Shown piece after piece: positions 21,059 through 54,539 of a stretch of 64,000 nt of DNA. How positions within the stretch are numbered: position 1 is the first letter of the stretch; each line of letters begins with the position of its first letter. The position numbers and the translations under genes were made by a program. The stretch is from a virus, in the IMG/VR virus record IMGVR_UViG_3300036790_000425, positions 98,436 through 162,435 of that record; one strand, written 5' to 3'. The notes below the pieces were generated by a model, which did not search any database, was not told the origin of the DNA, and saw only the letters and a list, made by a program, of their open reading frames with translations.

Positions 21059-22594
21059 TCAGGTCCCGGTCGCAGAAGCGTTCTGCTGCGACTGAGCGGC
21101 CACCAGGCCGGTGGACAGGTCCACCGACATCTGCACGGTGATGTAGTTCAGCGGCGCCGCCGGCAGGTACTGGAAGGTGACGGAGATCACCGTCGGGTTG
21201 CCAGTCGGGTAGGTCTGCTGGATCACGGACAGATTCGTGTAATCCACGATCACGTCATTGCTGATCGCGGCCTCCAGGATGCCGAGCACGGCCTCCTGAA
21301 CGGTGGTGACGGTATTGGCGGTGATCGGCTGGCCGATGAGCCCGGACCCCTGGAGGCCCTGCTTCACCGCGACCAGGAGCGTGTCCGACTGGCGGACCAG
21401 GGAGATCTCCTGGAAATTCAGCGCGCTCATATCGGTCGTGAGTCCCTGCCGGCAGGCCAGGGCCCCGGCGAAGTTGATGTAGCAGATGCTCACGCCCGAG
21501 GACGCCAGGCTGTTCATGAAGGCGTTGGTCATCCGGGCGATGTCAGCCTGGGCCAGCCCGGGGAAGCCCGACAGCGGCTGGTTGGTCAGGCCGGTGTTGA
21601 CCGGCAGCGAGGTCAGGATGGCGCCCAGGGCGACAGCCAGGTAACAGCCGGCCGCCTGGAAGGTCTGGCCGGTGACCGAGTTGAACATCGGCACGACCTC
21701 GGGGAAGGCCAGGATCGTGCGCCGGCTGGCCAGCCCGGCCGCGAACGTCGGGACCGACTCGTCAGTCTCGGAGTAGTTCCGGGGGAAGCCGAAGAAGCCC
21801 TGCCGGGGGAAGCCGTCGCTGTAGGCGCTCCACATGGCCGCGTCCAGGCCGGCCGCCAGGCTCGATGCCAGCGCGGCCACGGTGCCGGAATTGACGGTCA
21901 GGTCGTCAGTGAAGACCGGGACCACCACGGTGGCAGCGCCCTGGGTGGCAACCCGGCTATAGGCCGCGCTGAACTGCTCAGGCAGGCCCCCGTCAGCCGG
22001 GTTGAGCGCCACGCAGATCAGGGTGGTCGCCCCGTTGGTGAAAGCCACCAGCGCGGCAGCCGTCAGCGGGTTGTCGATCTGGGAGGCGTTCGCCGCGCCC
22101 GGCGCCGTGGCCAGGAAGGCCTGGCCGTAGGCGGTCACCACCGACTGGTAGTCAGTGAAGACCTGCGGCTGGTAGTAGCCCGAGTCAGCGTAGTTGTAGG
22201 TGACCGTGACCTGCTGGCCGTCGGAGACCGCCGTGGAGTCGCTGACCCGCACGATGCTCGTGGTGGCCAGGCCGGGATCGCCTGAGGGATCAGTGACCGT
22301 GGTCAGGCTGTAGTCCGTGCCGGGAGTCAGCACCGTGCCGTCCAGCAGGGTCACCACCGGGGCCGTGATCAGCGGCGGGCCGGATACCTCGGTGGTGAAC
22401 ACGCCCATGTAGGTCAGCGGCACCGAGGACGCGGCCGAGATCAGCAGGCCCTGCACGGCGGTCCGGAAGCCCAGGGCCGGGCCCACCAGGGTGAGCACCT
22501 GGGATGGCACCAGGGTCGGCACCACGATAGGCGTGCTGACGTCCTCCACAAAGACGCCCGGAGGCTGGTATGTGCTGAAAGACGGGATGGTCAC
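21059..22594 (-). CDS. Tail sheath protein
   Basis: 511 residues. The start TYQPPGVFVEDVSTPI is the usual sheath opening (YxxPGVYxxE). The C-terminus carries QTYPTGNPTVISVTFQYLPAAPLNYITVQM (in parts), the strand donated to neighbouring subunits, and a mid segment DVSICYINFAGAL-like before it. The sheath contracts to drive the tube through the envelope. AGAGGAG lies upstream of the ATG, and the linker has a CCCCGGAAG motif right after the stop of the previous gene. Confidence 0.92.
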   Translation of the reverse strand: MTIPSFSTYQPPGVFVEDVSTPIVVPTLVPSQVLTLVGPALGFRTAVQGLLISAASSVPLTYMGVFTTEVSGPPLITAPVVTLLDGTVLTPGTDYSLTTVTDPSGDPGLATTSIVRVSDSTAVSDGQQVTVTYNYADSGYYQPQVFTDYQSVVTAYGQAFLATAPGAANASQIDNPLTAAALVAFTNGATTLICVALNPADGGLPEQFSAAYSRVATQGAATVVVPVFTDDLTVNSGTVAALASSLAAGLDAAMWSAYSDGFPRQGFFGFPRNYSETDESVPTFAAGLASRRTILAFPEVVPMFNSVTGQTFQAAGCYLAVALGAILTSLPVNTGLTNQPLSGFPGLAQADIARMTNAFMNSLASSGVSICYINFAGALACRQGLTTDMSALNFQEISLVRQSDTLLVAVKQGLQGSGLIGQPITANTVTTVQEAVLGILEAAISNDVIVDYTNLSVIQQTYPTGNPTVISVTFQYLPAAPLNYITVQMSVDLSTGLVAAQSQQNASATGT

Positions 22595-24866: not shown

Positions 24867-25517
24867 CACCCCGAAGAAGTCGCCGCCCTTGTGCCGGGGA
24901 TTGTCGGTGCCCCAGTGCCGGACGCGAGGCCCGGGGACCAGCTTGGGGATGTGCTTGGAGCAGTGCACGTAGGCCTCCTCGACGCGCACCGCCACCCAGT
25001 GCTCGGCCCGCCGGCCGGGGCTCGTCTCATCCGGCACGCCCGGGTCCAGGAGCTGCATCTCCTGGCGGGTCAGGATGCGGGCCTCGCCGTTCACGTGCAG
25101 GCCGATCAGGTCCCGGGTGAAGTCCACCAGGAAGATTCCGATATGCGGGTTCTCCGCGATGTTCCCGAGGCTGGCCAGGACTCCGTTGCCCCGGTACTCG
25201 GGGTAGGCCAGCGTGCTGGTGCCGAGCACCCGGATGAAGCCTGGCGCTCCTGCCCGCATGCTGGAGTCGCACTCGCCCCGGGAGTCGGAGGTGGCGATGA
25301 AGGCCAGCTCCATCCGGCTGATGAACTCGATCATCCGCGGAGTCAGCGCGGTGGCGAACTGGGTCCGGTAGAAGCGCTCGGCCCGGTCCCGGGTATCGTC
25401 CCGGTCCTGGATCAGGTGCTCCCCGGCGGACCCGGGGCGGGTGTCCTGAGGCGATGCCGCGGGCGCGGCCAGGTGCTTAGGGGCACGGGTCCGCCGGAAC
25501 GGGGAGAGCAGAGACAC
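24855..25517 (-). CDS. Pyridoxamine 5'-phosphate oxidase family flavoprotein
   Basis: 220 residues from GTG 25517 (GGAAGG upstream). The split-barrel core is clear: MELAFIATSDSRGECDSS, FIRVLGTSTLAYPEYRGN, GVLASLGNIAENPHIGIFLVDF. This matches PPOX-family proteins of actinobacteria which bind FMN or F420; the substrate is unknown. Some bacterial relatives are fused to an FNR-type reductase, and here the partner gene is a globin-FNR protein, so the two may work together. 12-base convergent overlap with the flavohaemoglobin. Confidence 0.9.
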   Translation of the reverse strand: MSLLSPFRRTRAPKHLAAPAASPQDTRPGSAGEHLIQDRDDTRDRAERFYRTQFATALTPRMIEFISRMELAFIATSDSRGECDSSMRAGAPGFIRVLGTSTLAYPEYRGNGVLASLGNIAENPHIGIFLVDFTRDLIGLHVNGEARILTRQEMQLLDPGVPDETSPGRRAEHWVAVRVEEAYVHCSKHIPKLVPGPRVRHWGTDNPRHKGGDFFGVSGT

Positions 25518-34860: not shown

Positions 34861-34935
34861 TGGAGGCCCCTCCGGGAGTTGAACCCGGCTGCGCGGTTTT
34901 GCGGACCGCTACCTTGGCCGCTCGGTCAAGGGACC
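34861..34935 (-). tRNA. tRNA-Cys (GCA)
   Basis: Full cloverleaf with encoded CCA. Anticodon loop CCGCAAA has C at position 33 instead of U. Confidence 0.88.
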
Positions 34936-34936
34936 C

Positions 34937-35013
34937 TGGTGAGCCTGGACGGACTCGAACCGCCGACCTTCTCCTTAGGAGGGAGTAGCTCTGTCCGCTG
35001 AGCTACAGGCTCA
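34937..35013 (-). tRNA. tRNA-Arg (CCT)
   Basis: Acceptor TGAGCCT/AGGCTCA, loop CTCCTAA, encoded CCA. Confidence 0.93.
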
Positions 35014-35019
35014 CGGTGC

Positions 35020-35092
35020 ACCTCCGGTCCGACTCGAACGGACGACCTCTTGGTTCGGAACCAAGTGCGCTATCCACCTGCGCTACGGAGGC
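35020..35092 (-). tRNA. tRNA-Arg (CCG)
   Basis: Acceptor GCCTCCG/CGGAGGT, loop TTCCGAA, no encoded CCA. Confidence 0.92.
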
Positions 35093-35159
35093 TAGACGGC
35101 AAATGCCGCGTATTTCTCATCTAGGACTACCTGGCATACAGCGCCCAAAATGCTACATG

Positions 35160-35208
35160 CTACCTCCAGACCGGAGGCGGTCGCTCTATCCGCTGAGCTA
35201 CGGGTGCT
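35160..35208 (-). pseudogene. tRNA-Arg 5' half
   Basis: Acceptor 5' strand and D-arm (TAGCTCAGCGGATAGAGC) followed by CTCCGGT (a CCG anticodon), but no T-arm or 3' acceptor follow. A truncated copy of an Arg tRNA. Confidence 0.55.
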
Positions 35209-35218
35209 TGATGGTGCG

Positions 35219-35300
35219 TGGCGGAACCAGGTGCCGACCCTGGCCTGTCCGAAGACGACGGTTTTACAGACCGCTGAGCGCGCCGGCGCTCACTTCCGCC
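35219..35300 (-). tRNA. tRNA-Tyr (GTA)
   Basis: Class II variable arm, loop CTGTAAA, acceptor GGCGGAA/TTCCGCC. T-loop is GTCGGCA, lacking the usual T54 and A58. Confidence 0.9.
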
Positions 35301-35376
35301 TGGGGAGGATGACGGGACTCGAACCCGCTCCTACTGGGTCCACAACCCAGCCCTTCGACGCTTCGGGCTCATCCTC
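35301..35376 (-). tRNA. tRNA-His (GTG)
   Basis: Loop TTGTGGA, acceptor GAGGATG/CATCCTC, C73 and encoded CCA. Position -1 is T, so the G-1 identity base is not templated. Confidence 0.9.
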
Positions 35377-35378
35377 AG

Positions 35379-35450
35379 TAGCCGCTGGAGGTACCGATCC
35401 TCCGGCCCCCGCCGTGTGAAAGCGGTGCTCTGCCATTGAGCTAAGCGGCC
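35379..35450 (-). tRNA. tRNA-Val (CAC)
   Basis: Loop TTCACAC, acceptor GGCCGCT/AGCGGCT. T-loop ATCGGTA is non-canonical. No CCA. Confidence 0.9.
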
Positions 35451-35454
35451 ATGC

Positions 35455-35513
35455 TGGCGAGTGGGGATTCGAACCACCGGGGGCCGTCGCCCTTCCGCTC
35501 CGTGCTCTCGCCA
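35455..35513 (-). pseudogene. D-arm-less tRNA-like element
   Basis: 59 nt with a perfect 7-bp acceptor stem (TGGCGAG/CTCGCCA) and a TTCGAAT T-loop, but only 27 nt between them, too little for both D- and anticodon arms. Either a decayed tRNA or a minimal tRNA-like RNA. Confidence 0.5.
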
Positions 35514-35517
35514 GTCG

Positions 35518-35589
35518 TGCGCCCGAGAGGACTCGAACCTCCATCGCCAGCTCCGCAAGCTGGTGTCCTGTCCGTTGAACGACAGGCGC
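35518..35589 (-). tRNA. tRNA-Arg (GCG)
   Basis: Loop TTGCGGA gives anticodon GCG, rare in bacteria, where ACG normally reads CGN. Acceptor GCGCCTG/CGGGCGC. Confidence 0.9.
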
Positions 35590-35590
35590 G

Positions 35591-35662
35591 TGGTCGCTCC
35601 AGGTGCTGACCCTGGGGCCTCCGCCGTGTCAGGACGGCGCTCTCCCGCTGAGCTAAGCGACC
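35591..35662 (-). tRNA. tRNA-Val (GAC)
   Basis: Loop CTGACAC, acceptor GGTCGCT/AGCGACC. T-loop GTCAGCA non-canonical. Confidence 0.92.
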
Positions 35663-35765
35663 CTGCCCGGAGTCTTCCGCATCCCCGCCCGGTCACCCGG
35701 GCTCTCCGAATCAGCCGGGGCGCCGCGGACGCCCGGTGACTGCCACCCTGTGATGGGGGGACTCG

Positions 35766-35840
35766 CGGTCCAGACGGGATTCGAACCCGCGGTCTCCAGC
35801 TTGACGGGCTGGCGGGGACGGCCGGCTCCCCTACAGGACC
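35766..35840 (-). tRNA. tRNA-Asp (GTC)
   Basis: Loop CCGTCAA with C33. Acceptor has a T6-T67 mismatch. T-arm normal. Confidence 0.85.
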
Positions 35841-35899
35841 TTGGTGACCCTTGCGGGCCGGTGTTACCTTGAAAACTCACTAACGGGAAGGACCGGGCA

Positions 35900-36013
35900 A
35901 TGCGCGACAAGCTTCGCATGACTCTCTACGCCCTGGCCGGAGGCGGCGGCTTCTTCGCCATCGGCGGCATCTTCTACCACACGGTCAAGCCGCTGATCTT
36001 CTATCACACCTGA
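35900..36013 (+). CDS. 37-residue membrane peptide within tRNA array
   Basis: ATG 35900 preceded by GGGAAGG. Sequence starts MRDKLRMTLYALAGGGGFFA and continues with IGGIFYHTVKP, one hydrophobic span of about 20 residues with a basic N-terminus. Encoded opposite to the tRNA genes in a gap of about 220 bases. Possibly a small membrane toxin or regulator; unknown. Confidence 0.62.
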   Translation: MRDKLRMTLYALAGGGGFFAIGGIFYHTVKPLIFYHT

Positions 36014-36030
36014 TCTGTGCTCCCGAGGGC

Positions 36031-36056
36031 GCAGGCCAGTGCTGACCGAGGCCTGC
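36031..36056. other. Short hairpin in tRNA array
   Basis: 7-bp stem GCAGGCC/GGCCTGC with 12-base loop after the small plus-strand ORF. May end that transcript. A 14-base copy of the tRNA-Asn 3' end (CTGTGCTCCCGAGG) precedes it at 36015-36028. Confidence 0.45.
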
Positions 36057-36065
36057 TGGCCTGTG

Positions 36066-36139
36066 CTCCCGAGGAGGGACTCGAACCCCCAACCATCGCC
36101 TTAACAGGGCGCCGCTGCTGCCAATTGAGCTACCCGGGA
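36066..36139 (-). tRNA. tRNA-Asn (GTT)
   Basis: Loop CTGTTAA, acceptor TCCCGGG/CTCGGGA, G73, no CCA. Confidence 0.92.
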
Positions 36140-36178
36140 CCGGGGGCCGGCCACCTGCCAGGCGGCCGGCCTCTTGCG

Positions 36179-36252
36179 TAGCGGGGGCGGGATTCGAACC
36201 CGCGGTCTCCGGATTATGAGCCCGGCGTGCTTCCTAGCTGCACTACCCCGCA
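36179..36252 (-). tRNA. tRNA-Met (CAT), initiator-like
   Basis: Loop CTCATAA. Position 1 pairs T with T72 (mismatch), and the anticodon stem has GGG at 29-31, both reminiscent of initiator tRNA, which has an unpaired 1-72. Confidence 0.85.
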
Positions 36253-36253
36253 G

Positions 36254-36326
36254 TAGCCCCAGCCGGTGCTGACCCGGCGCCTCCGGATTGAAAGTCCGGC
36301 CACCTGACCGTTAGTGAGATGGGGCC
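36254..36326 (-). tRNA. tRNA-Glu (TTC)
   Basis: Loop CTTTCAA, acceptor GGCCCCA/TGGGGCT. T-loop GTCAGCA. One base from the previous tRNA. Confidence 0.92.
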
Positions 36327-36331
36327 TTGCG

Positions 36332-36403
36332 TAGCCTCACGGAGAGTTGAACTCCGCCCTGCTGACTGAGAACCAGCTGTCCTTGCCGCTAGACGATGAG
36401 GCC
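36332..36403 (-). tRNA. tRNA-Glu (CTC)
   Basis: Loop TTCTCAG, acceptor GGCCTCA/TGAGGCT. Confidence 0.92.
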
Positions 36404-36431
36404 ATGAGCCCGGCTTGACCGACCAGGCAGA

Positions 36432-36455
36432 GACCCTGCTGCATGCCGCAGGGTC
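36432..36455. other. Hairpin between tRNAs
   Basis: Perfect 8-bp stem GACCCTGC with 8-base loop; spacer structure or weak terminator. Confidence 0.45.
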
Positions 36456-36485
36456 ACGGGGCCCGTCTGAAGTGGGCCGGTCTCG

Positions 36486-36558
36486 CGCGCCATCAGGGTC
36501 TCGAACCCCGGGCCTGCTGCTTAGAAGGCAGCCGCTCTATCCGCTGAGCTAATGGCGC
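36486..36558 (-). tRNA. tRNA-Arg (TCT)
   Basis: Loop CTTCTAA, acceptor GCGCCAT/ATGGCGC. Confidence 0.94.
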
Positions 36559-36562
36559 AGAG

Positions 36563-36637
36563 TGCCCCCGCCAGGATTTGAACCCGGGACCCTCGCATTA
36601 AAAGTGCGCAACTCTGACCAGGCTGAGTTACAGAGGC
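36563..36637 (-). tRNA. tRNA-Lys (TTT)
   Basis: Loop CTTTTAA, acceptor GCCTCTG/CGGGGGC with wobble pairs. Confidence 0.92.
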
Positions 36638-36638
36638 G

Positions 36639-36713
36639 TGGCGGGGGTGGGACTTGAACCCACGTCCTGCTGCTTATGAGGCAGCCGCTTGTACTCAGCT
36701 CAGCTACCCCGCC
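36639..36713 (-). tRNA. tRNA-Met (CAT), second copy
   Basis: Loop CTCATAA, acceptor GGCGGGG/CCCCGCC fully paired, so elongator Met or an Ile-CAU type. Confidence 0.9.
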
Positions 36714-36783
36714 GGGGAGGCATCGCGGCCCGGTACAGCCGTGTCCCCGGGTGTGACCTGGCTAGGCTGCTCCGCGATGCCAG

Positions 36784-36857
36784 TGGGCCGAGGAGGACTT
36801 GAACCTCCGACCGTTTCCTTATCAGGGAACCGCACCAACCTGCTGTGCTACCGGCCC
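36784..36857 (-). tRNA. tRNA-Ile (GAT)
   Basis: Loop CTGATAA, acceptor GGGCCGG/TCGGCCC. Confidence 0.93.
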
Positions 36858-36893
36858 GTGGTTGAACTGATGCGCCCGGGGAAGCTGGGGCGC

Positions 36894-37055
36894 ATGGTTA
36901 TCATCATTGCCCTTCTTGCCTTCGCGATCGCCGCGCTGATCGCGTTCACCTCGCTGAACGGGATCTCGGTCATCGGCCTCGGCATGGTCGGGCTGTTCTT
37001 CCTCACGCTGCACTTCGTCGTGCCGGAGCGCTATGGCGTGCCCTGGAGGCGGTGA
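36894..37055 (+). CDS. 53-residue two-span membrane protein within tRNA array
   Basis: ATG 36894 (GGGG upstream). Two hydrophobic spans: VIIIALLAFAIAALIAF and GISVIGLGMVGLFFLTLHFV, ending in a basic tail ERYGVPWRR. A longer open frame to the left crosses two tRNA genes and is not coding. Encoded opposite to the tRNAs. Unknown, possibly holin-like in size. Confidence 0.65.
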   Translation: MVIIIALLAFAIAALIAFTSLNGISVIGLGMVGLFFLTLHFVVPERYGVPWRR

Positions 37056-37061
37056 CCTGAG

Positions 37062-37148
37062 AGGCGGGAGTGGGATTCGAACCCACGAGACCGTGAGGCC
37101 TGGCTGTTTTCGAGACAGCTGCACTAATCCGGACTATGCGACCCCGCC
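37062..37148 (-). tRNA. tRNA-Ser (CGA)
   Basis: Class II, 87 nt, loop CTCGAAA, acceptor GGCGGGG/TCCCGCC. Confidence 0.92.
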
Positions 37149-37162
37149 GGAGTTGGATCTTG

Positions 37163-37251
37163 CGGAGGAACCGGGATTCGAACCCGGGAGGGGATCTCTC
37201 CCCTACTGCCTTAGCAGGACAGCGCCATCAGCCAGACTCGGCCATCCCTCC
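37163..37251 (-). tRNA. tRNA-Ser (GCT)
   Basis: Class II with long paired variable arm (AGGGGAGAGATCCCCT), loop CTGCTAA, G73. Confidence 0.93.
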
Positions 37252-37336
37252 AGGTGGCGCCGCGGATTGCCGTCTCCCGCGCCTCTGCACCCGCGTGTCC
37301 TCCTAACGGACTTGGATTCGTATCCAGTGCAGCTTG

Positions 37337-37420
37337 TGTCCCAGGAGGGAGTCGAACCCTCACGCCCTCTCGGGCGCCGCGCTCTGAACGCGGTGCGTCT
37401 ACCTGTTTCACCACCGGGAC
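37337..37420 (-). tRNA. tRNA-Leu (CAG)
   Basis: Class II, variable arm GCCCGAGAGGGC, loop TTCAGAG, acceptor GTCCCGG/CTGGGAC. Confidence 0.93.
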
Positions 37421-37424
37421 AGGT

Positions 37425-37448
37425 CCCGGCCTGAGCAGGCAGGCCGGG
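37425..37448 (-). terminator. Hairpin after rtcB
   Basis: 8-bp stem CCCGGCCT/AGGCCGGG just beyond the rtcB stop, before the next tRNA. Confidence 0.55.
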
Positions 37449-37454
37449 GTCTTG

Positions 37455-38639
37455 CTAGCCCTTGACGCACACCACCTGCTTGATGTGGTGACGGACCTCG
37501 ACCAGGTCCGTCTGCGCCGCGATCACCTCACCGATGTCCTTGTAGGCACCCGGGATCTCATCCAGCACGCCCCGGTCCTTCCGGCACTCGACCCCGTCGG
37601 TCTGGGCCGCCAGGTCGGCCTCGGTGAAGGCCCGCTTCGCCGCGCCGCGCGACATCCGCCGCCCGGCGCCGTGCGAGGCCGAGCACATCGAGTCCCGGCT
37701 GCCGAGCCCGGCCACGATGAAACTGCCGGTGCCCATCGAACCCGGGATGATGCCCAGCTCGCCCAGGCCGGCCCGGATGGCGCCCTTGCGGGTGACCATC
37801 ACCTCAGTGCCGCCCCAGTTCTCCTCCGCCACGTAATTGTGGTGGCAGGAGATCGGCTCGTCCCAGCTGACCGGCCGGCTAAGCGCGGTGTCCAGGGCGC
37901 CCATCGCCAGGCCGAGCATCACCTGGCGGTTGCGCCGGGCGTAGTCCTGGGCCCAGTACAGGTCCCGCCGGTAGGCGTCCATCTCGGGGGTCCCGGTCAG
38001 GAACACCGCCAGGTCCCGGTCCGGCAAGCCGGCATTGTGCGGCAGCGCCCGGGCCGCCTCCATGTGCCGCTCGGCCAGCTCCTTGCCGATGTTTCGCGAG
38101 CCCGAGTGCAGCATCAGCCACACGCGGCCAGCGTCATCGCCACCCTGCTCGGTGCACAGCTCGATGAAGTGGTTCCCTCCGCCGAGCGTGCCCATCTGGC
38201 TGCGGGCCCGGCCGTGCCGGTACTGGACTCCCTCGTGCAGAGCGGCGAAGCCGCCCCAGAACGACTTCCAGGTACCGCCGGTCATCCGGATCGCATGCTC
38301 GTGCGAGCTGAAGCCAACCGGGATGGCCATCTCCAGCTCGATCCGGACCTCGTGCAGGTCATCCGGCAGGTCGCTGGCTGTGAGGTGACTGCGGACTGCT
38401 GTCATCCCGCAGCCGATGTCCACGCCGACCGCCGCCGGGCAGACCGCCTGACGCATCGCGATAACCGAGCCGACGGTGGCGCCCTTGCCGTAGTGAACGT
38501 CCGCCATGACGGCGACCTCGGTGGTCCAGGGGAGGCTCGCCACGTTCCGAAGCTGCTGCTGCGCGGAGGGCTCGATCGTCCAGGGGTCAATCCACACGCG
38601 CACTGGTGCCCGGGTGCCGGGCAGCATCTGGTAAGCCAT
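37455..38639 (-). CDS. rtcB: RtcB-type RNA ligase (RNA repair)
   Basis: 394 residues. All core motifs are present in order: VMADVHYGKGATVG (about 44-57), GVDIGCGM (about 72), GTLGGGNHFIE, LHSGSRNIG, CHHNY, GSMGTGSFIVAG, and CSASHGAGRRMSR containing the His that is guanylylated. The Asp, Cys and His ligands for Mn2+ are intact. RtcB joins RNA 2',3'-cyclic phosphate to 5'-OH ends, for example repairing cleaved tRNAs. Here it sits inside the tRNA array, which fits repair of phage and host tRNAs cut by anticodon-nuclease defences. GGAGGAAA precedes the start. Confidence 0.96.
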   Translation of the reverse strand: MAYQMLPGTRAPVRVWIDPWTIEPSAQQQLRNVASLPWTTEVAVMADVHYGKGATVGSVIAMRQAVCPAAVGVDIGCGMTAVRSHLTASDLPDDLHEVRIELEMAIPVGFSSHEHAIRMTGGTWKSFWGGFAALHEGVQYRHGRARSQMGTLGGGNHFIELCTEQGGDDAGRVWLMLHSGSRNIGKELAERHMEAARALPHNAGLPDRDLAVFLTGTPEMDAYRRDLYWAQDYARRNRQVMLGLAMGALDTALSRPVSWDEPISCHHNYVAEENWGGTEVMVTRKGAIRAGLGELGIIPGSMGTGSFIVAGLGSRDSMCSASHGAGRRMSRGAAKRAFTEADLAAQTDGVECRKDRGVLDEIPGAYKDIGEVIAAQTDLVEVRHHIKQVVCVKG

Positions 38640-38675
38640 CAGGGTTTCCTCCTTTGATGGTCTGAATCAATGACG

Positions 38676-38749
38676 AGCGGATGACCGGGATCGAACCGGC
38701 GACCTCGACGTTGGCAACGTAGCGCTCTAGCCAGCTGAGCTACATCCGC
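38676..38749 (-). tRNA. tRNA-Gly (GCC)
   Basis: Loop TTGCCAA, acceptor GCGGATG/CATCCGC. Starts 4 bases after the end of the RNase P RNA. Confidence 0.94.
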
Positions 38750-38753
38750 ATGT

Positions 38754-39097
38754 GAGCCGGCCTGTAAGCCGGGTTCTGTACCCGCCAGGGGCGGGCGACG
38801 GCCATCCATCTGGGACCGCCATCGCTGACGGCCTCGTGCGGCCTACCAGCCGGCACCGGGCGGGCCGCCCGCCAGCTTCTGGCCTTGCTCCGGGTGGGGC
38901 TTGCCGAGCCGCCCCGGTCACCCGGGACGCTGGTGGTCTCTTACACCACCGTTTCACCCTTACCCCCGAGGGGGCGGTCTGTTCTCTGCGGCGCTTTCCC
39001 GTGGGTCACCCCAGGTTGCCGTTAGCAACCACCCTGCCCTGCGGAGCCCGGACTTTCCTCGGCACCCCGGAAGGTGACGCGGCCGTCCAGCCGGCTC
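38754..39097 (-). ncRNA. rnpB: RNase P RNA, bacterial type A
   Basis: About 344 nt. All universally conserved blocks are present in order: GAGGAAAGTCCGGGCTCC (5' P4 strand), GGGCAGGGTGGTTGC, GGTAAGGGTGAAACGGTG, GTAAGAGACCACCAGC, CACCCGGAGCAAGGCCA, GGTAGGC, AGATGGATG, and ACAGAACCCGGCTTA (3' P4 strand). P1 is formed by GAGCCGGC/GCCGGCTC at the two ends. RNase P RNA cuts 5' leaders from tRNA precursors. It is squeezed between tRNA-Thr (2 bases) and tRNA-Gly (4 bases), so it must be released from the same precursor. No RNase P protein gene is seen in the window. Confidence 0.97.
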
Positions 39098-39099
39098 AG

Positions 39100-39173
39100 A
39101 GCCCCGAATCGGATTCGAACCGATGACCTTCTCCGTACCGAGGAGATGCTCTGCCGGGCTGAGCCATCGGGGC
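39100..39173 (-). tRNA. tRNA-Thr (GGT)
   Basis: Loop TCGGTAC with C33, acceptor GCCCCGA/TCGGGGC. Confidence 0.88.
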
Positions 39174-39192
39174 AGGCCCGGCCGGAGCCGGG

Positions 39193-39408
39193 TCAGGCAG
39201 CGCCGAACCGGTCGAACTCGCCGTTCCGGACGCCGCCGATGAAGGCCTCCCACTCGGAGGCCGTGAAGACCAGGTGCGGCCTGGCCGGGTGCTTGCTGTC
39301 GCGCACGCCGACCTCGCCGCGCGGCAGGCTGGCTACCTCGACGCAGTTGCCGTTGGCGAAGCTGAGTGATGACTTGACCCACTTAACCGGCAGCTCTTTC
39401 ATGGTCAT
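39193..39408 (-). CDS. DUF397 domain protein
   Basis: 71 residues from ATG 39408. KWVKSSLSFANGNCVEVASL, then VRDSKHPARPHLVFTASEWEAFI, is the classic DUF397 pattern of actinobacteria (W-KSS-S---G-CVEVA ... VRDSK ... F---W-AF). These small proteins usually partner Xre-family HTH regulators in Streptomyces, sometimes acting as antitoxin-like or developmental regulators. No HTH partner of that kind is adjacent. TATCAT lies exactly 6 bases upstream of ATG, so it may be leaderless with its own promoter inside the tRNA array. Confidence 0.9.
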   Translation of the reverse strand: MTMKELPVKWVKSSLSFANGNCVEVASLPRGEVGVRDSKHPARPHLVFTASEWEAFIGGVRNGEFDRFGAA

Positions 39409-39428
39409 ACCGGGATGATATCCGTAAG

Positions 39429-39500
39429 CTGAGGGAGCGGGCTTCGATCCCGCGTTGCCCGGGCCAAAACCGAGTGTCCTGCCAGCTAGACGATCCCCCA
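39429..39500 (-). tRNA. tRNA-Gln (TTG)
   Basis: Loop TTTTGGC, acceptor TGGGGGA/TCCCTCA. T-loop ATCGAAG. Confidence 0.9.
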
Positions 39501-39505
39501 CCGCG

Positions 39506-39578
39506 AGCCCCCGGCCGGAACCGAGCCGGCGACCTCCTGATTACAAGTCAGGCGCTCTGCCAGCTGAGCTACGGAGGC
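39506..39578 (-). tRNA. tRNA-Thr (TGT)
   Basis: Loop CTTGTAA, acceptor GCCTCCG/CGGGGGC. T-loop CTCGGTT. Confidence 0.92.
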
Positions 39579-39676
39579 AGGCCCCGGGCCGGGGCACCGC
39601 GCAGGGCGCCCTGGGGTGCCGCGGCACCGGGGGTTGCAGGTGCCCTCGCCTCCGGGCTGCGCGCCTCCCTCGCGGG

Positions 39677-39715
39677 CTGCGCGGCGGGACTCGAACCCGC
39701 GATCTGTCCTGCTCG
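39677..39715 (-). pseudogene. tRNA 3'-half fragment
   Basis: A clean T-arm (GCGGG TTCGAGT CCCGC) without anticodon or D-arm, abutting tRNA-Leu. A recombination remnant. Confidence 0.5.
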
Positions 39716-39801
39716 TGTCCGGGGCGGGACTCGGACCCGCACGCCCTTGGTAGGGCACAGCCACCTCAAGGCTGCGCGTCTGCCATTTCCGCCACCCGGA
39801 C
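39716..39801 (-). tRNA. tRNA-Leu (GAG)
   Basis: Class II, loop TTGAGGT, acceptor GTCCGGG/CCCGGAC. T-loop TCCGAGT (C55). Confidence 0.9.
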
Positions 39802-39802
39802 G

Positions 39803-39876
39803 AGCCCCGACCCAGAATCGAACTGGGGACCTGCTCATTACGAGTGAGCCGCTCTATCCGCCTGAGCTATCGGGGC
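39803..39876 (-). tRNA. tRNA-Thr (CGT)
   Basis: Loop CTCGTAA, acceptor GCCCCGA/TCGGGGC. One base from tRNA-Leu. Confidence 0.94.
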
Positions 39877-39979
39877 AAGATGTGCCAGGCCTCCGCCGTT
39901 GGCGGGCTTCGCATCCTGGCTTGACGGTGGCTGGCCGCCAGGCCGGGACACTCGGAGGGAGCCACCCTCACCTGGGCTG

Positions 39980-40054
39980 CTGACCACCCTGGACTCGAAC
40001 CAGGAAGTGTCCCGGACCAGAACCGGGCGGGTCTGCCATTTCCCCTAGTGGTCA
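39980..40054 (-). tRNA. tRNA-Gln (CTG)
   Basis: Loop TTCTGGT, acceptor TGACCAC/GTGGTCA, G73. Confidence 0.9.
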
Positions 40055-40087
40055 TTGTCGGCGGATTGACGCGCTCCGGCCGGGCGC

Positions 40088-40164
40088 TGGTGGGCGAGGC
40101 GGGAATCGAACCCGCGCCTGTGGCGTTTTTGACGCGCTGCCTCTGCCTGCTGGGCTACTCGCCC
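40088..40164 (-). tRNA. tRNA, anticodon apparently AAA (Phe?), degenerate stem
   Basis: Acceptor GGGCGAG/CTCGCCC, D- and T-arms and encoded CCA are good. The anticodon stem has only three pairs and loop TCAAAAA with C33. Isotype uncertain. Confidence 0.6.
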
Positions 40165-40176
40165 CAGATGATCTGT

Positions 40177-40283
40177 GACCGGCCGCGAGGGGGATACGGC
40201 GCACCCGGTAGCCCGGTAGCCCTATCCGCGCGATGCCCTTCGCGCGAGCCGCTGACTTTCGTACTGACCCCTCGCGGCCGGTC
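40177..40283. ncRNA. Candidate structured RNA
   Basis: A perfect 16-bp outer stem (GACCGGCCGCGAGGGG with its complement at 40268-40283) encloses 75 bases with an inner CGCGCG hairpin and two copies of CGGTAGCC. It lies between tRNA genes. I do not recognise it as a known family. Confidence 0.45.
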
Positions 40284-40390
40284 AGGCTGAAGGTGCGGGT
40301 GCCCGGACCGGCTACCCCTTGTCAGGGTCGGAGGACACGAGCCTCCTGGCCGTCAGCCGGGCGCCTTCCGGAGCTTTCAGGCCGCCCGCT

Positions 40391-40454
40391 AGCCCGGGAC
40401 TGAGAATCCCGTTCCGCTGCTTCCCGAGGGCCCCGGGATTCTCAGTCCCGGGCT
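40391..40454. repeat. Perfect 21-bp inverted repeat
   Basis: Arms 40391-40411 and 40434-40454 are exactly complementary, with a 22-base loop. A very stable hairpin in a gap between tRNAs; could be a terminator, processing site or mobile remnant. Confidence 0.75.
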
Positions 40455-40519
40455 CCGAGGCCAGCACCCTGGCCTGCCCTGCACTCAGTACATTACAGGG
40501 TTTCCAGCTAACGGTCAAG

Positions 40520-40597
40520 TGGTACGCCGCCACGGGCTCGAACCGTGCACCCCCGGATTAAGAGTCCGGTGCTCTACCAGCGATGAGCTAGCGGCGC
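40520..40597 (-). tRNA. tRNA-Lys (CTT)
   Basis: Loop CTCTTAA, acceptor GCGCCGC/GCGGCGT, encoded CCA. Confidence 0.94.
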
Positions 40598-40601
40598 TCA
40601 G

Positions 40602-40674
40602 AGCGGACGACGGGAGTCGAACCCGCAACAACCAGCTTGGAGGGCTGGTACCCGGCCAGTTGGGACTCGTCCGC
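40602..40674 (-). tRNA. tRNA-Gly (TCC)
   Basis: Loop CCTCCAA with C33, acceptor GCGGACG/CGTCCGC. Confidence 0.88.
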
Positions 40675-40844
40675 ATGATGCCCCGCCACCGTGACGCCGT
40701 GGCCGGCAACCCGTTCACGCGCCGGCCCGGAATGCACTTGCGGGCCGGCAGGCATGAGACCAGAGTCGTGCACGACCCTGGCTGGCCCGGGGAGCGTCCT
40801 CCCCGGGGCGGGCTACCGGCTGGTTACGGCCTGCCCGTCATGCC

Positions 40845-40925
40845 ATCGCACAACCCCGGGAATCGAACCCGGCCTACCGGTGCTCCCGGCAGGGCAACCC
40901 ATGCTGCTGCTTTACCCGGGGCGCA
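40845..40925 (-). pseudogene. Degenerate tRNA-like segment
   Basis: Good T-arm (CCGGG TTCGATT CCCGG) but acceptor strands do not pair and no convincing anticodon stem is found. Confidence 0.4.
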
Positions 40926-40998
40926 GGGCCCGGCGGCCGATCGCGTCCGCCAGGATGCGTGATCCCGGGTGCCCGGGCCCGTCGATCGTCAGGCCCAG

Positions 40999-41088
40999 CG
41001 GAGCACCGGGAGTCGAACCCGGGCCATCCCGGCTGGACCGCGCCGTAGCGCGCCAGTCCCGGTCTGCTGACCAGCTCAGTTACTCCTG
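40999..41088 (-). pseudogene. tRNA-like element with extended arm
   Basis: Six-pair acceptor (GGAGTA/TGCTCC), normal T-arm, D-arm CTG/CAG, but in place of a 7-base anticodon loop there is a long hairpin through CTGG...CCAG. Isotype not readable. Confidence 0.4.
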
Positions 41089-41137
41089 CACGCGAGGTGC
41101 CCCTCGCGCTCCAGCATGCTGGTGCGCACCAGCATCG

Positions 41138-41211
41138 TGGTCCCGCCTGGTTTCGGGCCAGGGGCCTCCGGGTCTTCACTCCGGCGCTCTTACCTACTGA
41201 GCTACAGGACC
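41138..41211 (-). tRNA. tRNA-Phe (GAA)
   Basis: Loop GTGAAGA, acceptor GGTCCTG/CGGGACC. T-loop CCCGAAA. Confidence 0.88.
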
Positions 41212-41220
41212 TCGTTCCTG

Positions 41221-41330
41221 GGGAGGCGGCCGGGCTCGGACCCCTCCGTGTGGTTCCCCGCCGGGGGTTCCTCCCCGTGATCTTCAAGTCTGAGGGGCGC
41301 TCTGCCATTGAGCTACCCGGACGGCTAAGC
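41221..41330 (-). pseudogene. Broken tRNA halves
   Basis: A good 5' half (GTCCGGGTAGCTCAATGGCA, GAGC) is followed by unpaired GC-rich sequence and an unrelated 3' half. Acceptor strands do not match. Confidence 0.4.
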
Positions 41331-41332
41331 CC

Positions 41333-41396
41333 AGGCCGGGACTCGAACCCGGATCTCCCCGCGGGCTGCTCTGCCGCCTGAGCTACCCGCCAGGAG
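41333..41396 (-). pseudogene. tRNA-like element with shortened anticodon arm
   Basis: D-arm (TAGCTCAGGCGGCAGAGC) and T-arm (CCGGG TTCGAGT CCCGG) are intact but only about 15 bases separate them and the acceptor is mismatched. Confidence 0.4.
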
Positions 41397-41400
41397 CGAC

Positions 41401-41475
41401 CTGGCGGGGCGGGACTCGAACCCGCGACCTGCCCTGCTGACGGTGGCGTCCTGCCGATTGGACGACTGGCCACCA
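41401..41475 (-). tRNA. tRNA-like, anticodon unclear
   Basis: Acceptor TGGTGGC/CCCGCCA nearly pairs, T-arm is normal, D-arm GTCC/GGAC good. The anticodon stem is weak; frames give CAG or TCA. Probably decaying. Confidence 0.45.
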
Positions 41476-41579
41476 GGGAGTACTCCCCGGCTCCGGGTCT
41501 CCGGCATCAGGGAGCGCTCCCCTCGGCCGTCCTCCCGGACATAAGACCAGGCGGGACTCGAACCCGCATTACCACCAGG

Positions 41580-41654
41580 TCGGGATGGCCAGATTCGAAC
41601 TGGCGACCCCCTGCTCCCGAAGCAGGTGCTCTAGCCAAGCTGAGCCACATCCCG
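41580..41654 (-). tRNA. tRNA-Pro (CGG)
   Basis: Loop TTCGGGA, acceptor CGGGATG/CATCCCG. An extra T-arm fragment abuts its 3' side (41546-41579). Confidence 0.94.
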
Positions 41655-41843
41655 TTTAGCGCCGGTACTTCCCCGGTGGTGATAAAGATCCTCCTCCGGT
41701 TCACTCTCAGCCAGCTATCCCGCCCCGGGCGCGGGCGGCCGGTCCCGGGGCGCGTGGCCATCACGCTCGGGTGCCTGCACGATTCTGTCCCTTCCGGGAT
41801 TTTCGGCGGCCTCGTGCTATGGCCACGCCGGTCACTGACATCC

Positions 41844-41898
41844 CTGGCGATACGGATTTGAACCGCGAGGTCCCTCTTGCGGAGGTCCTGGTCGCCAG
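41844..41898 (-). pseudogene. D-arm-less tRNA-like element
   Basis: 55 nt: perfect 7-bp acceptor CTGGCGA/TCGCCAG, T-loop TTCAAAT, and between them only about 24 bases with a CCTC/GAGG hairpin. Same architecture as 35455-35513. Confidence 0.5.
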
Positions 41899-42119
41899 CC
41901 CTACCCAGGGCCGTGTGCCGGAACTCGGTGATGCTGTCACATCGGGGCACAGAGCATCGTCCTCGGTGAGCTGCTCCGTGGTCTCGACCACACAGGACTG
42001 GCTCGTGCCTGTGCCCCTCCGCCGGGCGGCCAAGCCCGGTCTCCCTGCCCTTCCCGGAAACGACCGGGGTGGCTGGGGCCTGCCGTCGGGAGGATCTCCC
42101 GGTGTGACGGCACCATCGG

Positions 42120-42193
42120 TCGGGGTGGCGGGATTCGAACCCGCGTCCTCCTGATCCCAAATCAGGCGCGCTGCCAGGCTGCGCTACACCCTG
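42120..42193 (-). tRNA. tRNA-Pro (TGG)
   Basis: Loop TTTGGGA, acceptor CAGGGTG/CACCCCG with an A-C mismatch at 2-71. Confidence 0.9.
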
Positions 42194-42244
42194 TGAATCC
42201 GGGGACGGCAAGGTTACCCGCCTTGAGGCTTCCGAGCCCCGGAG

Positions 42245-42319
42245 TGGACCACCCGGGGATCGAACCCGGTGCCTTCCGCTTGCGAGGCGGACGCTCTACC
42301 TACCATGAGCTAGCAGCCC
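42245..42319 (-). tRNA. tRNA-Ala (CGC)
   Basis: Loop CTCGCAA, acceptor GGGCTGC/GTGGTCC with G-T pairs. The Ala G3-T70 pair is present. Confidence 0.92.
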
Positions 42320-42486
42320 TTGCGGCGGGATTCCGGTGACGCGAGCGTTTCCCGCCTGGCTCCCGGCTGGCTCAGCCGGTCAGTTACGGCACTACTCGCG
42401 GCCGGGAGAGGGCAACCCTTCCCTTAGCCTGATCTCTCATTTACTCCAGGCGGCTGCCGCTGCCACGCGGCTGCCGGACTGTCCTG

Positions 42487-42560
42487 TGGAGCTGAAGGGG
42501 CTCGAACCCCCGGCCTCCTGCGTGCCACGCAGGCGCTCTACCAAGCTGAGCTACAGCCCC
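42487..42560 (-). tRNA. tRNA-Ala (GGC)
   Basis: Loop GTGGCAC, acceptor GGGGCTG/CAGCTCC with the G3-T70 identity pair. Confidence 0.93.
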
Positions 42561-42902
42561 TCGGCACCTGTGTACTGCCGCCACCCTGGCCGAGGCCAGG
42601 GCCGCCACCCCTGCGGTGCGATGCGAGTCCCGCTCTCGTGGGGGACCGGCAGCAGCACGGTGCTTGCCACGGACGCGGCAGAACCGCGCACTGGGCGTCT
42701 TGCTCCCTCCCCGGCCCGCCGGGCTCGGTCCCCGCTGACACGGGGAGCTGGCCACCTGGACCAGGGAGGGAAGAACTGGCGGCCGGGCCTGAATGGACGC
42801 TGGCAACGTCCGGCCAGGCCGCCTCGTGTTCACACGCTATTGAGCTGTCAATTTACGAGCCGGTTGCCCCGCCGTTGCTCTCGCTCGGGCCGGGTGGCTG
42901 CG
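42561..42902. other. Gap of about 340 bases without a recognised gene
   Basis: Lies between tRNA-Ala and tRNA-Trp. It has several GC-rich hairpins (for example CCTGGCCGAGGCCAGG near 42585) but no convincing ORF, tRNA or known RNA. Could hold a structured RNA or be tRNA spacer. Confidence 0.5.
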
Positions 42903-42970
42903 CACGAGTACTAGGTTCCGATCCCAGCCCACCGGTTTTGGAGACCGGTGGCCGCCCAGCGGCTACTCGC
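42903..42970 (-). tRNA. tRNA-Trp (CCA)
   Basis: 68 nt with a very short D-arm, loop CTCCAAA, acceptor GCGAGTA/TACTCGT, T-loop ATCGGAA. First tRNA of the array in the direction of transcription. Confidence 0.82.
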
Positions 42971-51795: not shown

Positions 51796-52818
51796 CTTGG
51801 TGATACTTGCGAGTCCGCGCGGGTTCAGGATGTTCATGGCCACCATCTCGTCGAAGACCCATCCCTTCCAGAAGGCCTCGACGGTGTGGTTCTCCTCTAC
51901 GTCAAGTGAATAGAGGATGGGGAACACGCCCAGGAAGTTGGGCTCCGGGGCCAGGAAGATCTTCGCCTGCGGGACGATGATCGAGCGCTGGATCTGGAAC
52001 TCGCCGAAGCTGGTGATGGTCTCGCCCGCGACCACCCGGTCCTTGAAGGCCCAGCCGGTCTGGTTGATGTCCCACCGGAACATGTCCCGGTAGTCGAACG
52101 GGTTGATCAGGATGCGCGAGCTGGGCAGCTCGTGCAGGTCGGTCATGGCCACGGCCGAGTACAGCGAGCCGGGGGTCAGGTAGCCCGACGCCTCGGTGAT
52201 GTTGTGGTTCGGGGTGACCACGTGGTCGGGCCGCGTTGCGTAGTCGGTGATCGCCGCCTGGATCAGCACCAGCAGCCGGGCGTCCTCCTGCTTCAGGATC
52301 GCCTGCTTGGTCTCGTCCTGGGCCTGCTCGACCGCGTTGATCCGGAGGTAGAACAGGTCCTCCTTGCGGATCGCCGGGCGGCTCGCGATCCGGAAGAACC
52401 GGACCGGGATGCGCTTGCCCTCGAACGGGGTCACGCGGACCTCGCCCTCGGTGCCGCTCAGGATGTAGGCCTGGCCCAGGTCATCCCAGACGTCGTACTC
52501 GACCGGGGTGCCGGGCGTGACCGGGTCCTCGACCAGGACGTTCCGGACGATCCCCTGGTAGCGCAGCTTCAGCTGGATCGGCCCGACCATGCCGACGCCC
52601 AGCCGGCGGAAGCCGTGCATCTCATCGCTGAGGATGAGGGCCATCTTGCGGACCTTGGCCTCGCGCGTGAGCCCTACGCCGCCGGTCCTGGCCCGGCGGG
52701 CCTCGATCTGCGAGACGTAGTCGTCGCTCTTGCGGGAGGCCACTCGCGGACGCAGGCCGCCGCCTTGCGGCGCCAGCGCCAGCTGCCCGCCAGCCGAAAC
52801 GGTGGCCAGCTCGTTCAT
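51790..52818 (-). CDS. Major capsid protein
   Basis: 342 residues. Soluble, with an E-loop-like N-terminal segment and the HK97-type pattern of a spine helix (LRINAVEQAQDETKQAILKQ) and P-domain; HELPSSRILINPFDYRDMFRW and GWVFDEMVAMNILNPRGL resemble capsid proteins of actinobacterial myoviruses. Directly follows the protease and decoration genes, the standard order. Gene is intact and not interrupted by the nearby nuclease. Confidence 0.85.
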   Translation of the reverse strand: MNELATVSAGGQLALAPQGGGLRPRVASRKSDDYVSQIEARRARTGGVGLTREAKVRKMALILSDEMHGFRRLGVGMVGPIQLKLRYQGIVRNVLVEDPVTPGTPVEYDVWDDLGQAYILSGTEGEVRVTPFEGKRIPVRFFRIASRPAIRKEDLFYLRINAVEQAQDETKQAILKQEDARLLVLIQAAITDYATRPDHVVTPNHNITEASGYLTPGSLYSAVAMTDLHELPSSRILINPFDYRDMFRWDINQTGWAFKDRVVAGETITSFGEFQIQRSIIVPQAKIFLAPEPNFLGVFPILYSLDVEENHTVEAFWKGWVFDEMVAMNILNPRGLASITKS

Positions 52819-52857
52819 CTGGGTTCCTTTCCTGCGTACCGCGTTTGGTGGTCGTGG

Positions 52858-53493
52858 CTAGTTCTTGAGGGACGCCGGGGAGGCGTTGTACCAGGCCGGG
52901 GACAGGCCGCCGATGGTGAGCTTGGTGGCGCTGTTCACCTTGAGCAGCCGGGCCACCGGCTGGCTGATGGCCGTGTCCGTGCCTCCGGACTGGGCATAAG
53001 GCACGAGCATCCCCTGGTTGGCGCCGGCCGTGGAGACCGCGACCAGGGCCGACCCCGAGCCATCCGACGGGTCCGTCCAGGTGGCGGTGGCGTCGAACGC
53101 GGGAGCCAGGATCTCGAACTCGCTGTCGGGGCCGAGCACCCACACCGCGAAGGCGTTGATGCCGGCGTAGAGCAGCTCGTCGATGCCGTCGCCGCCGACG
53201 TACAGCGCGCCCAGGCCGTAGATCGGCGGGCCCTCGTTGGCGGTGAAGTCTGACCCGGCGTTCCCCGAGTGGGCGGATCCGGTCATCGTCTTGGTGCCCA
53301 TCTGGGTCGAGTTGGCGCCGGCCAGGCTCACCAGGTCGCCACCCGTGCGGACGAAGCCCATGCCGGGCCAGATCGGGACGGCGCGGGTCCAGGCCGGGTC
53401 CAGGAAGCAGGGCTTCGGGGTGGCCTGGGTCCAGGCGTACAGCGGCCGGATCGTCCGCTTGACGTAGTCATTGGAAAGGTAAGTACGGATCAT
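52858..53493 (-). CDS. Head protein between protease and capsid (decoration or vertex)
   Basis: 211 residues from ATG 53493, with GGAGGAGAT upstream; a longer frame lies in the flanking remnant. MIRTYLSNDYVKRTIRPLYA then FLDPAWTRAVPIWPGMGFVR; the rest is beta-rich. Probably a capsid decoration protein. A broken copy of its N-terminal region lies upstream (53522-53602). Confidence 0.72.
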   Translation of the reverse strand: MIRTYLSNDYVKRTIRPLYAWTQATPKPCFLDPAWTRAVPIWPGMGFVRTGGDLVSLAGANSTQMGTKTMTGSAHSGNAGSDFTANEGPPIYGLGALYVGGDGIDELLYAGINAFAVWVLGPDSEFEILAPAFDATATWTDPSDGSGSALVAVSTAGANQGMLVPYAQSGGTDTAISQPVARLLKVNSATKLTIGGLSPAWYNASPASLKN

Positions 53494-53521
53494 GGCCTTT
53501 AATCTCCTCCATTTTCGCTGG

Positions 53522-53602
53522 TCATAGCGCCGACCATGCATAGAGCGGCCGGATGATCCGTTTGAGATCCGCCGCGCGTAAAAAGGACTTTCCGTCCGCT
53601 GT
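53522..53602 (-). pseudogene. Fragment of a second head-protein gene
   Basis: In one frame this reads DLKRIIRPLYAWSAL then stop, close to DYVKRTIRPLYAWTQ of the intact protein downstream; DNA identity over about 32 bases is also clear. A remnant beside the endonuclease VII gene. Confidence 0.7.
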
Positions 53603-53636
53603 ATGCGTTTAGAACGCATCTGCTAGACTCGTCCTC

Positions 53637-54434
53637 ATGGATGAACCACGACTCTGCGCATGCGAGCCCGGCTGCCAGATTTTCCGCGGGCTCTGTCACT
53701 GCGGCTGCGGGACGAAGACCTCGATCGTCACTCACACCGTCAGGGCCCGCGGCCAGATCGCCGGTGAGCCCATGAGGTACATCCGCGGGCACGCCAGGGG
53801 CGCTCATCACGACCTCACCGAGATCAATGAGGAGCACCGCACCGCGCGGTGCTCCCGCTGCGGCGAGATCACCGTCAAGCGCGACGGCGACCGCTGGAAG
53901 TGCACGACCAGGCTCCAGGCCCGGCACCGGATCAGCAGCATTGACCCGGATGCGCGCACCGCGTGGTGCGGAGCCTGCGGTCAGGTCGTTGACATCGTGC
54001 GGCACAAGCGCGGCGGAGAGCGCCAGGGCAAGGACTGGCTGTGCGGCCCGGAGAGTCGCCGGCGCGCTCAGGAATACAAGGACGCCAACCGGGAGAGAAT
54101 CCGCGAGGGACATAAGACCTGGCGCGCTCAGAACCGCCGCCAGCTCCAGAATGCTCATCTGGTCCGGACCTACGGCATCACCATCCAGGACTACGAGCGC
54201 ATGCTCGTCCTCCAGGGCGGCCACTGCGCCCTGTGCCCGGCCACCCGGGGCAACGCCCGCAGCGAGCTGCTCTTTGTCGATCACGACAAGGAGACAGGCC
54301 TGATCCGGGACTGGCTGCTGTGCGGCAGCTGCAACATCGGGATCGGCTGCCTCGGCCACGATCCTGTGCGCCTGCGCCTGGCAGCTGACTACCTGGAGGA
54401 CGTGCAGCAGCGAGCCGTGCATGCGCTCGTATAG
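53637..54434 (+). CDS. Endonuclease VII-like nuclease with zinc fingers
   Basis: 265 residues. Several CxxC pairs (CACEPGCQIF, CHCGCGTK, CSRCGEI, CGACGQ) precede a C-terminal endonuclease VII domain: YGITIQDYERMLVLQGGHCA, LCPA, FVDHDKETG and LLCGSCNIGIGCLGHD, i.e. the HNH-type Cys4/His core of T4 gp49 relatives. Many such genes act as homing endonucleases. Encoded opposite to the capsid genes with TAGACT 7 bases before ATG, so it has its own promoter. Confidence 0.88.
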   Translation: MDEPRLCACEPGCQIFRGLCHCGCGTKTSIVTHTVRARGQIAGEPMRYIRGHARGAHHDLTEINEEHRTARCSRCGEITVKRDGDRWKCTTRLQARHRISSIDPDARTAWCGACGQVVDIVRHKRGGERQGKDWLCGPESRRRAQEYKDANRERIREGHKTWRAQNRRQLQNAHLVRTYGITIQDYERMLVLQGGHCALCPATRGNARSELLFVDHDKETGLIRDWLLCGSCNIGIGCLGHDPVRLRLAADYLEDVQQRAVHALV

Positions 54435-54539
54435 CGGGCTGCTCACTGGCTGCACCTCCTCTCGGGGCTCATCGGGGTCCTGCTACTCCTTCTGGGGCGG
54501 GGAGGCCGGAAAGCTGCATCGCAGTCGTCTTGTCTGGGG

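Follow-up and report, generated by a model that had tools for sequence, protein, structure and literature searches.

Phages with many tRNA genes are assumed to borrow the RNase P of their host. The locus described here raises the question of whether such a phage can carry an RNase P RNA of its own and what that RNA would be for. A sequence-only reading of the window (the whole 64,000-nucleotide stretch analyzed, positions 98,436 to 162,435 of IMG/VR record IMGVR_UViG_3300036790_000425) had proposed that a complete, phage-encoded type A RNase P RNA occupies positions 38754-39097 within a tRNA array, 2 bases from tRNA-Thr and 4 bases from tRNA-Gly. The covariance score, helix P4, comparative covariation, and the myophage context all support this proposal, and the junctions, which we read directly, agree with its coordinates and distances to the base.

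The Rfam class A model RF00010 (gathering score, 100 bits) matched the window from 39098 to 38749 on the minus strand with 280 bits (E = 2.1e-90) and over model positions 1-367; the match is full length, and the low score that would have refuted the proposal was not obtained. Based on this score and on covariation in related phages, an rnpB-like RNase P RNA of bacterial class A was annotated at 38750..39097 (minus strand, as are the elements that follow). Helix P1 joins the first base of the RNA to the last, from G39097 at the 5′ end to C38754 at the end of the 3′ strand. The conserved regions CRI, CRII-IV, and CRV are all intact: CRI (GAGGAAAGUCCGGGC, 39046..39060) includes the 5′ strand of P4 with its bulged U, and CRV (ACAGAACCCGGCUUA, 38765..38779) forms the 3′ strand. 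P4, whose loss would likewise have spoken against the proposal, is canonical, with AAG-U-CCGGG pairing with CCCGGCUU around the bulged U, and is kept in five phages. The GGU of L15 was placed at 38845..38847 by the RF00010 alignment, and we presume that it pairs with the CCA end of the pre-tRNA. Such a pairing site has been described for the L15 GGU of type A RNase P RNAs (PMC11143913). Both the specificity domain and the catalytic domain are present and, as far as sequence and predicted structure tell, this is an ordinary type A RNase P RNA. The single-sequence folding z-score was modest (-2.3), as expected because the RNA is pseudoknotted and has 71% GC; folding of the single strand was uninformative, and the case rests on the covariance score and comparative covariation. 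A search of the whole 162,435-bp record found no second RNase P RNA.

The record carries phage structural genes (tail sheath, baseplate wedge, tape-measure/lysin, tail fibre, and cement protein) together with genes for replication and recombination (DNA polymerase, primase, helicases, exonuclease, and RecA). The tail sheath (21059..22594, minus strand; phrog_2839, E = 7e-45) is distantly similar, at ~28% in tblastn, to the tail sheaths of Mycobacterium, Gordonia, and Rhodococcus phages. From this gene content, we infer that the record is a 162-kb contractile-tailed myophage of an actinobacterium. A plasmid or chromosomal element, suggested by DUF397, was ruled out by the tail sheath, baseplate, polymerase, primase, and cement protein. 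The window also encodes an Lsr2 nucleoid protein (20090-20455, minus strand) and a flavohaemoprotein-like gene with globin, FAD-, and NAD-binding domains (23451-24866, plus strand) that adjoins a pyridoxamine-phosphate-oxidase-like gene (24855-25517, minus strand); nitric-oxide detoxification in the phage is a possible role of this pair. Locus L004:11877-16628 (record 51874-56628, minus strand) encodes a 1584-aa protein with a rifampin ADP-ribosyltransferase-like domain.

The tRNA array (34861..42970, minus strand) comprises 33 tRNA genes of 18 amino-acid types within 8.1 kb, all on one strand, with phage genes on either side and an order common to related phage contigs. No tRNA and no Rfam match was found in the other 98 kb of the record. 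Directly upstream of the RNA lies tRNA-Thr(GGU), which has no encoded CCA (39099..39173, minus strand), and directly downstream lies tRNA-Gly(GCC) (38675..38749, minus strand), both identified with ARAGORN and Rfam. At the 5′ junction, the tRNA-Thr(GGU) end UCGGGGCU is followed by CU and then by P1 at G39097; at the 3′ junction, C38754 is followed by ACAU and then by G+1 of tRNA-Gly(GCC) at G38749. A CCA near the 3′ end was found in only 10 of the 33 tRNAs of the window. An RtcB RNA ligase gene (37455..38639, minus strand; PF01139, 391 bits) and one or more DUF397 genes also lie within the array, and a short ORF with a K1-lyase C-terminal domain (PF24146; 34470-34814, minus strand) lies just past it.

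The closest relatives among viral contigs reproduce this arrangement in part. The window, L052, L007, and L053 have their tRNAs in the same order and the RNA next to tRNA-Thr(ggt). The tRNA order of L013 is very similar, but there the RNA is found between tRNA-Arg(acg) and tRNA-Val(cac). In L007 and L052, 60-61 nt separate the RNA from tRNA-Gly, and the tight 3′ adjacency is lost in these close relatives. This spacer is conserved between the two, contains GGATGTGCGGCGTAAG, and is absent in the window. The earlier inference that the RNA must be cut out of a precursor agrees with the window's spacings of 2 and 4 nt, but even the close relatives L007 and L052 do not share the short 3′ spacing. 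The window-type tail sheath had no match in the five relatives searched; L052 (G012) nevertheless carries major head, portal, and terminase genes and L007 (G013) a portal gene, and both are phages. Because relatives without this tail sheath have phage genes all the same, the tRNA array seems to be common to different phage types. Locus L004:11877-16628 (record 51874-56628, minus strand) encodes a 1584-aa protein with a rifampin ADP-ribosyltransferase-like domain.

Covariation was assessed in an alignment of five phage contigs (the window, L052, L007, L053, and L013) using the Rfam structure plus P4. Two-sided changes were found in 34 of 106 base pairs, compared with 14.6 ± 2.6 in shuffled alignments, none of which (0 of 500) reached 34; on this ground, we conclude that the RNA structure is under selection. 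Across the five sequences, 95.0% of the cells pair, and sliding the partners abolishes the signal. CRI to CRV are nearly invariant and the core is fixed, while the lengths of P3, P12, and P18 vary, P12 strongly so; P18 is missing from L007 and L053. The P4 pairs are conserved in all five phages, one of them with a compensatory GC/AU change.

In a tree built from the phage copies and 53 bacterial sequences, the phage copies fall within Actinobacteria, and the window, L052, L007, and L053 group together (UFBoot 91, SH-aLRT 80); the position of L013 is unresolved. Given a bootstrap that is not fully settled and several long branches, we take this grouping as moderate evidence of relatedness, and the gene order common to the same four contigs independently supports it. 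In a blast comparison whose bacterial part consisted of two trimmed sequences only, the window RNA had at most 76% identity to a bacterial sequence, so it is not a recent copy from any host sampled there. One entry among the sequences, L201 (WNZI01000002.1), is filed as Vibrio cholerae 35D; its rnpB is actinobacterial and groups with Arthrobacter and Micrococcaceae, which makes contamination probable.

To look for further phage copies, we ran three motif scans of IMG/VR followed by RF00010 searches and counted only RNase P RNAs lying no more than 7 nt from a tRNA on at least one side. Including the window, 26 contigs qualified, 10 of them with 0-6 nt on both sides, although some contigs, such as L007 and L036, are identical or nearly identical phages recovered from separate samples. 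The RNA occupies about 12 array positions, with neighbors Thr/Gly, Arg/Val, Cys/Gly, Leu/Arg, Trp, Ser/Arg, Asp/Ser, Ala/Met, Gly/Thr, Arg/Leu, Arg/Arg, and Val. RNase P RNAs away from tRNAs were present in records of 267-497 kb (L010, L033, L051, L073, L074, and L092), and a terminase family was found in 17 of 40 viral records carrying the RNA. Short IMG/VR contigs on which an RNase P RNA was found without any tRNA were numerous; they probably represent prophage or host flanks and were excluded from the counts. No RNase P RNA match was found in the mycobacteriophages with tRNA arrays that were matched through tRNA-Gly, nor in many other array-bearing phages. Candidates outside IMG/VR were also discarded: a Tsukamurella plasmid match has chromosome-type genes around it and no tRNA at the locus (ARAGORN), an S. 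globisporus plasmid match lies in an unannotated record, again with no tRNA at the locus (ARAGORN), and the INPHARED matches MaAM05 and Acinetobacter MD-2021a are surrounded by host-type genes. In the record named Microcystis phage MaAM05 (L278; MW495066.1 111323-119417), these are fabI, engB, mtgA, and glyS, and the record is probably misfiled bacterial DNA.

An RNA of this kind is present in many other large phages, cultured ones included, where it is usually unannotated. A reduced copy, L153, matches the Microbacterium foliorum phages A3Wally (99.5%), Zooman (91.4%), and Big4 (91.0%) and one further record. In the three named phages, the reduced RNA exactly occupies an unannotated gap between two tRNA genes; the RF00010 scores of the cultured-phage copies (51-72 bits) are under the cut-off of 100. 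The P4 letters of A3Wally are canonical. In Zooman (L296:3001-3221) and Big4 (L298:1001-1221), near-universal P4 letters are altered on both strands, AAGUUCCGGG facing CCCGGGCU, and a G-C pair and a U-G pair preserve the pairing. As far as can be told from the letters alone, this suggests that the structure of P4 is under selection, but it leaves catalysis uncertain in that branch. A recognizable catalytic domain with a lost or rebuilt specificity domain was also seen in L121:5635-5877, L016:4368-4594, L153:2248-2468, L099:3884-4149, L137:1748-2055, L109:6440-6751, and L048:1206-1465. In the specificity-domain region, L121, L016, and L153 have the common motif CCGUGUGG...ACUAAGC, which may mark a phage-specific domain. 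In the A3Wally annotation (L297), tRNA names were apparently read from the anticodon as codon, for example tRNA-Val(gtt) and tRNA-Pro(ccg); Zooman and Big4 name the same tRNA genes differently.

No RnpA gene (PF00825) was found in the record of the window or in the 40 other viral records with the RNA, some of which may be incomplete; the same model detected RnpA in 10 bacteria used as a positive control. As no rnpA was detected, the phage RNA would use host RnpA in a host-phage hybrid holoenzyme. We propose, with a probability of roughly 0.7, that this hybrid RNase P matures the phage tRNAs. The gene, the conservation of its fold, its placement, and its recurrence were observed; transcription, catalysis, and any fitness benefit are inferred and have not been demonstrated. 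According to this proposal, rnpB would have been acquired from an actinobacterial host and retained in the phage lineage as a member of the tRNA array. The RNA would be cotranscribed with the array tRNAs, its 5′ end arising from 3′-end processing of tRNA-Thr and its 3′ end from the RNase P cut at the 5′ end of tRNA-Gly, possibly made by the RNA itself in cis. Once freed, it would bind host RnpA, and the hybrid enzyme would trim the 33 phage pre-tRNAs. The benefit would be that tRNA maturation continues even if a large burst of precursors is more than the host can process, or while host RNAs are degraded or attacked. Such a use under limiting or attacked host RNase P, already suggested by the sequence-only reading, is plausible and not shown. 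Since host RNase P RNA remains stable in T4-infected E. coli (PMC9697503), the need for a phage copy is not general. Also weighing against the proposal are the lack of transcript or activity data, the lost 3′ adjacency in L007 and L052, the different location in L013, the scarcity of encoded CCA, and the array-bearing phages without an RNase P RNA.

Two alternatives are the strongest. The phage RNA could bind host RnpA with no need to cleave anything, so that host RNase P acts less on host substrates or is diverted to phage precursors. We consider this unlikely, even though the phage copies examined retain the RnpA-binding catalytic domain, the specificity domain is lost or rebuilt in several of them, P4 letters are altered with pairing kept in Zooman and Big4, and no phage rnpA was found. 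A pure sponge would not need what the window and its relatives keep, namely both domains, the GGU loop, a canonical P4, and strong covariation, and the position within a tRNA array points to tRNA processing; a sponge fits the reduced, P4-altered copies better than it fits the window. The RNA could also mainly cut the adjacent tRNA or tRNAs on its own transcript and do little in trans. Such a role would suit the 10 contigs in which both junctions measure 0-6 nt, and also the copies of L099, L153, and Zooman, in which a reduced specificity domain sits directly between tRNAs, since that domain would be less necessary with a tethered substrate. Pre-tRNA-RNase P RNA conjugates that cleave themselves have been engineered, as far as the citing account goes (Frank, Harris and Pace 1994, cited in PMC11143913). 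In our estimate, a mainly local role is improbable in view of the full-length copies whose specificity domain is intact, the 60-61-nt 3′ spacer in close relatives, and RNase P RNAs far from tRNAs in the large phage records L010, L033, L073, and L092.

That a host rnpB was swept into a recombination-prone tRNA array and retained by chance, without benefit, would be in keeping with arrays that differ among relatives and with the different placement in L013. This idea is already strained by the covariation that diverged phages show around a core that does not vary, and the same position in four relatives and about 12 array positions across many phage contigs leave it very improbable. We give next to no credence to an artefact in which mis-assembly or contamination placed bacterial rnpB in phage DNA. 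The record is metagenomic, MaAM05 and Acinetobacter MD-2021a look bacterial, and many of the short tRNA-less IMG/VR matches could be host flanks; against this, the tRNA-RNA-tRNA order is repeated in several independent contigs, phage genes flank both sides, and the reduced form is present in cultured phages. The relatives and the cultured phages effectively refute mis-assembly at the window locus.

Our preferred reading thus remains that of a hybrid RNase P formed by phage RNA and host RnpA. What is new is the repeated carriage of RNase P RNA in phage tRNA arrays without RnpA. A wider reading, to which we give somewhat less than an even chance, is that large phages with tRNA arrays have acquired RNase P RNA repeatedly and independently as a module that forms a hybrid with host RnpA and excises itself by cleaving its tRNA neighbor, and that in some lineages it has become a phage-specific reduced form, with the specificity domain rebuilt and even P4 letters altered. 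If this holds, phages would control tRNA maturation in the infected cell. A phage catalytic RNA without its protein implies that the enzyme is a hybrid and that there is a new point at which a phage takes over its host or counters its defences. The copies also provide natural examples of substrate-fused RNase P RNA and of a reduced specificity domain. With the reduced form present in cultured Microbacterium foliorum phages, direct experiment in laboratory strains is now possible.

The sequence-only reading doubted that such a gene had been described in a myophage. In keeping with this, we found no description of a phage-encoded RNase P RNA in open full text (subscription papers and most preprints lay outside the search), even though such genes are found repeatedly in large phages; a gap in the open literature does not prove novelty. 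The accessible part of a huge-phage survey lists tRNAs, synthetases, and tRNA ligation and does not name RNase P RNA (PMC7162821). The window RNA resembles actinobacterial type A rnpB (RF00010) in its full secondary structure, CRI to CRV, bulged U of P4, L15 GGU, and specificity domain. Unlike bacterial rnpB, it is encoded by a phage without rnpA and sits between tRNA genes, and none of the actinobacterial rnpB loci compared has more than one tRNA. Extra, possibly horizontally acquired RNase P RNAs with a divergent specificity domain are known from Mycobacterium austroafricanum but are on bacterial genomes, and the portion of that report available to us ties them to neither phages nor tRNA arrays (PMC9569102). 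The array itself resembles the tRNA array units of Mycobacterium phages and plasmids in being dense, covering most amino acids, and residing on an actinobacterial mobile element, but the reports on those units mention neither RNase P RNA nor rnpB (PMC5966550, PMC12803027). T4 likewise makes multimeric pre-tRNAs with very short spacers (tRNAs <5 nt apart) that are RNase P substrates (PMC11143913), but, unlike the phage described here, it depends on host RNase P (PMC11143913, PMC9697503). Theta ribozymes, too, are encoded by phages next to tRNA genes, and it has been proposed that they make the phage independent of certain host nucleases that process tRNAs; they are small, HDV-like, self-cleaving, and proposed to act on 3′ trailers (PMC10879173), whereas the window RNA is an RNase P RNA, a class that acts on 5′ ends.
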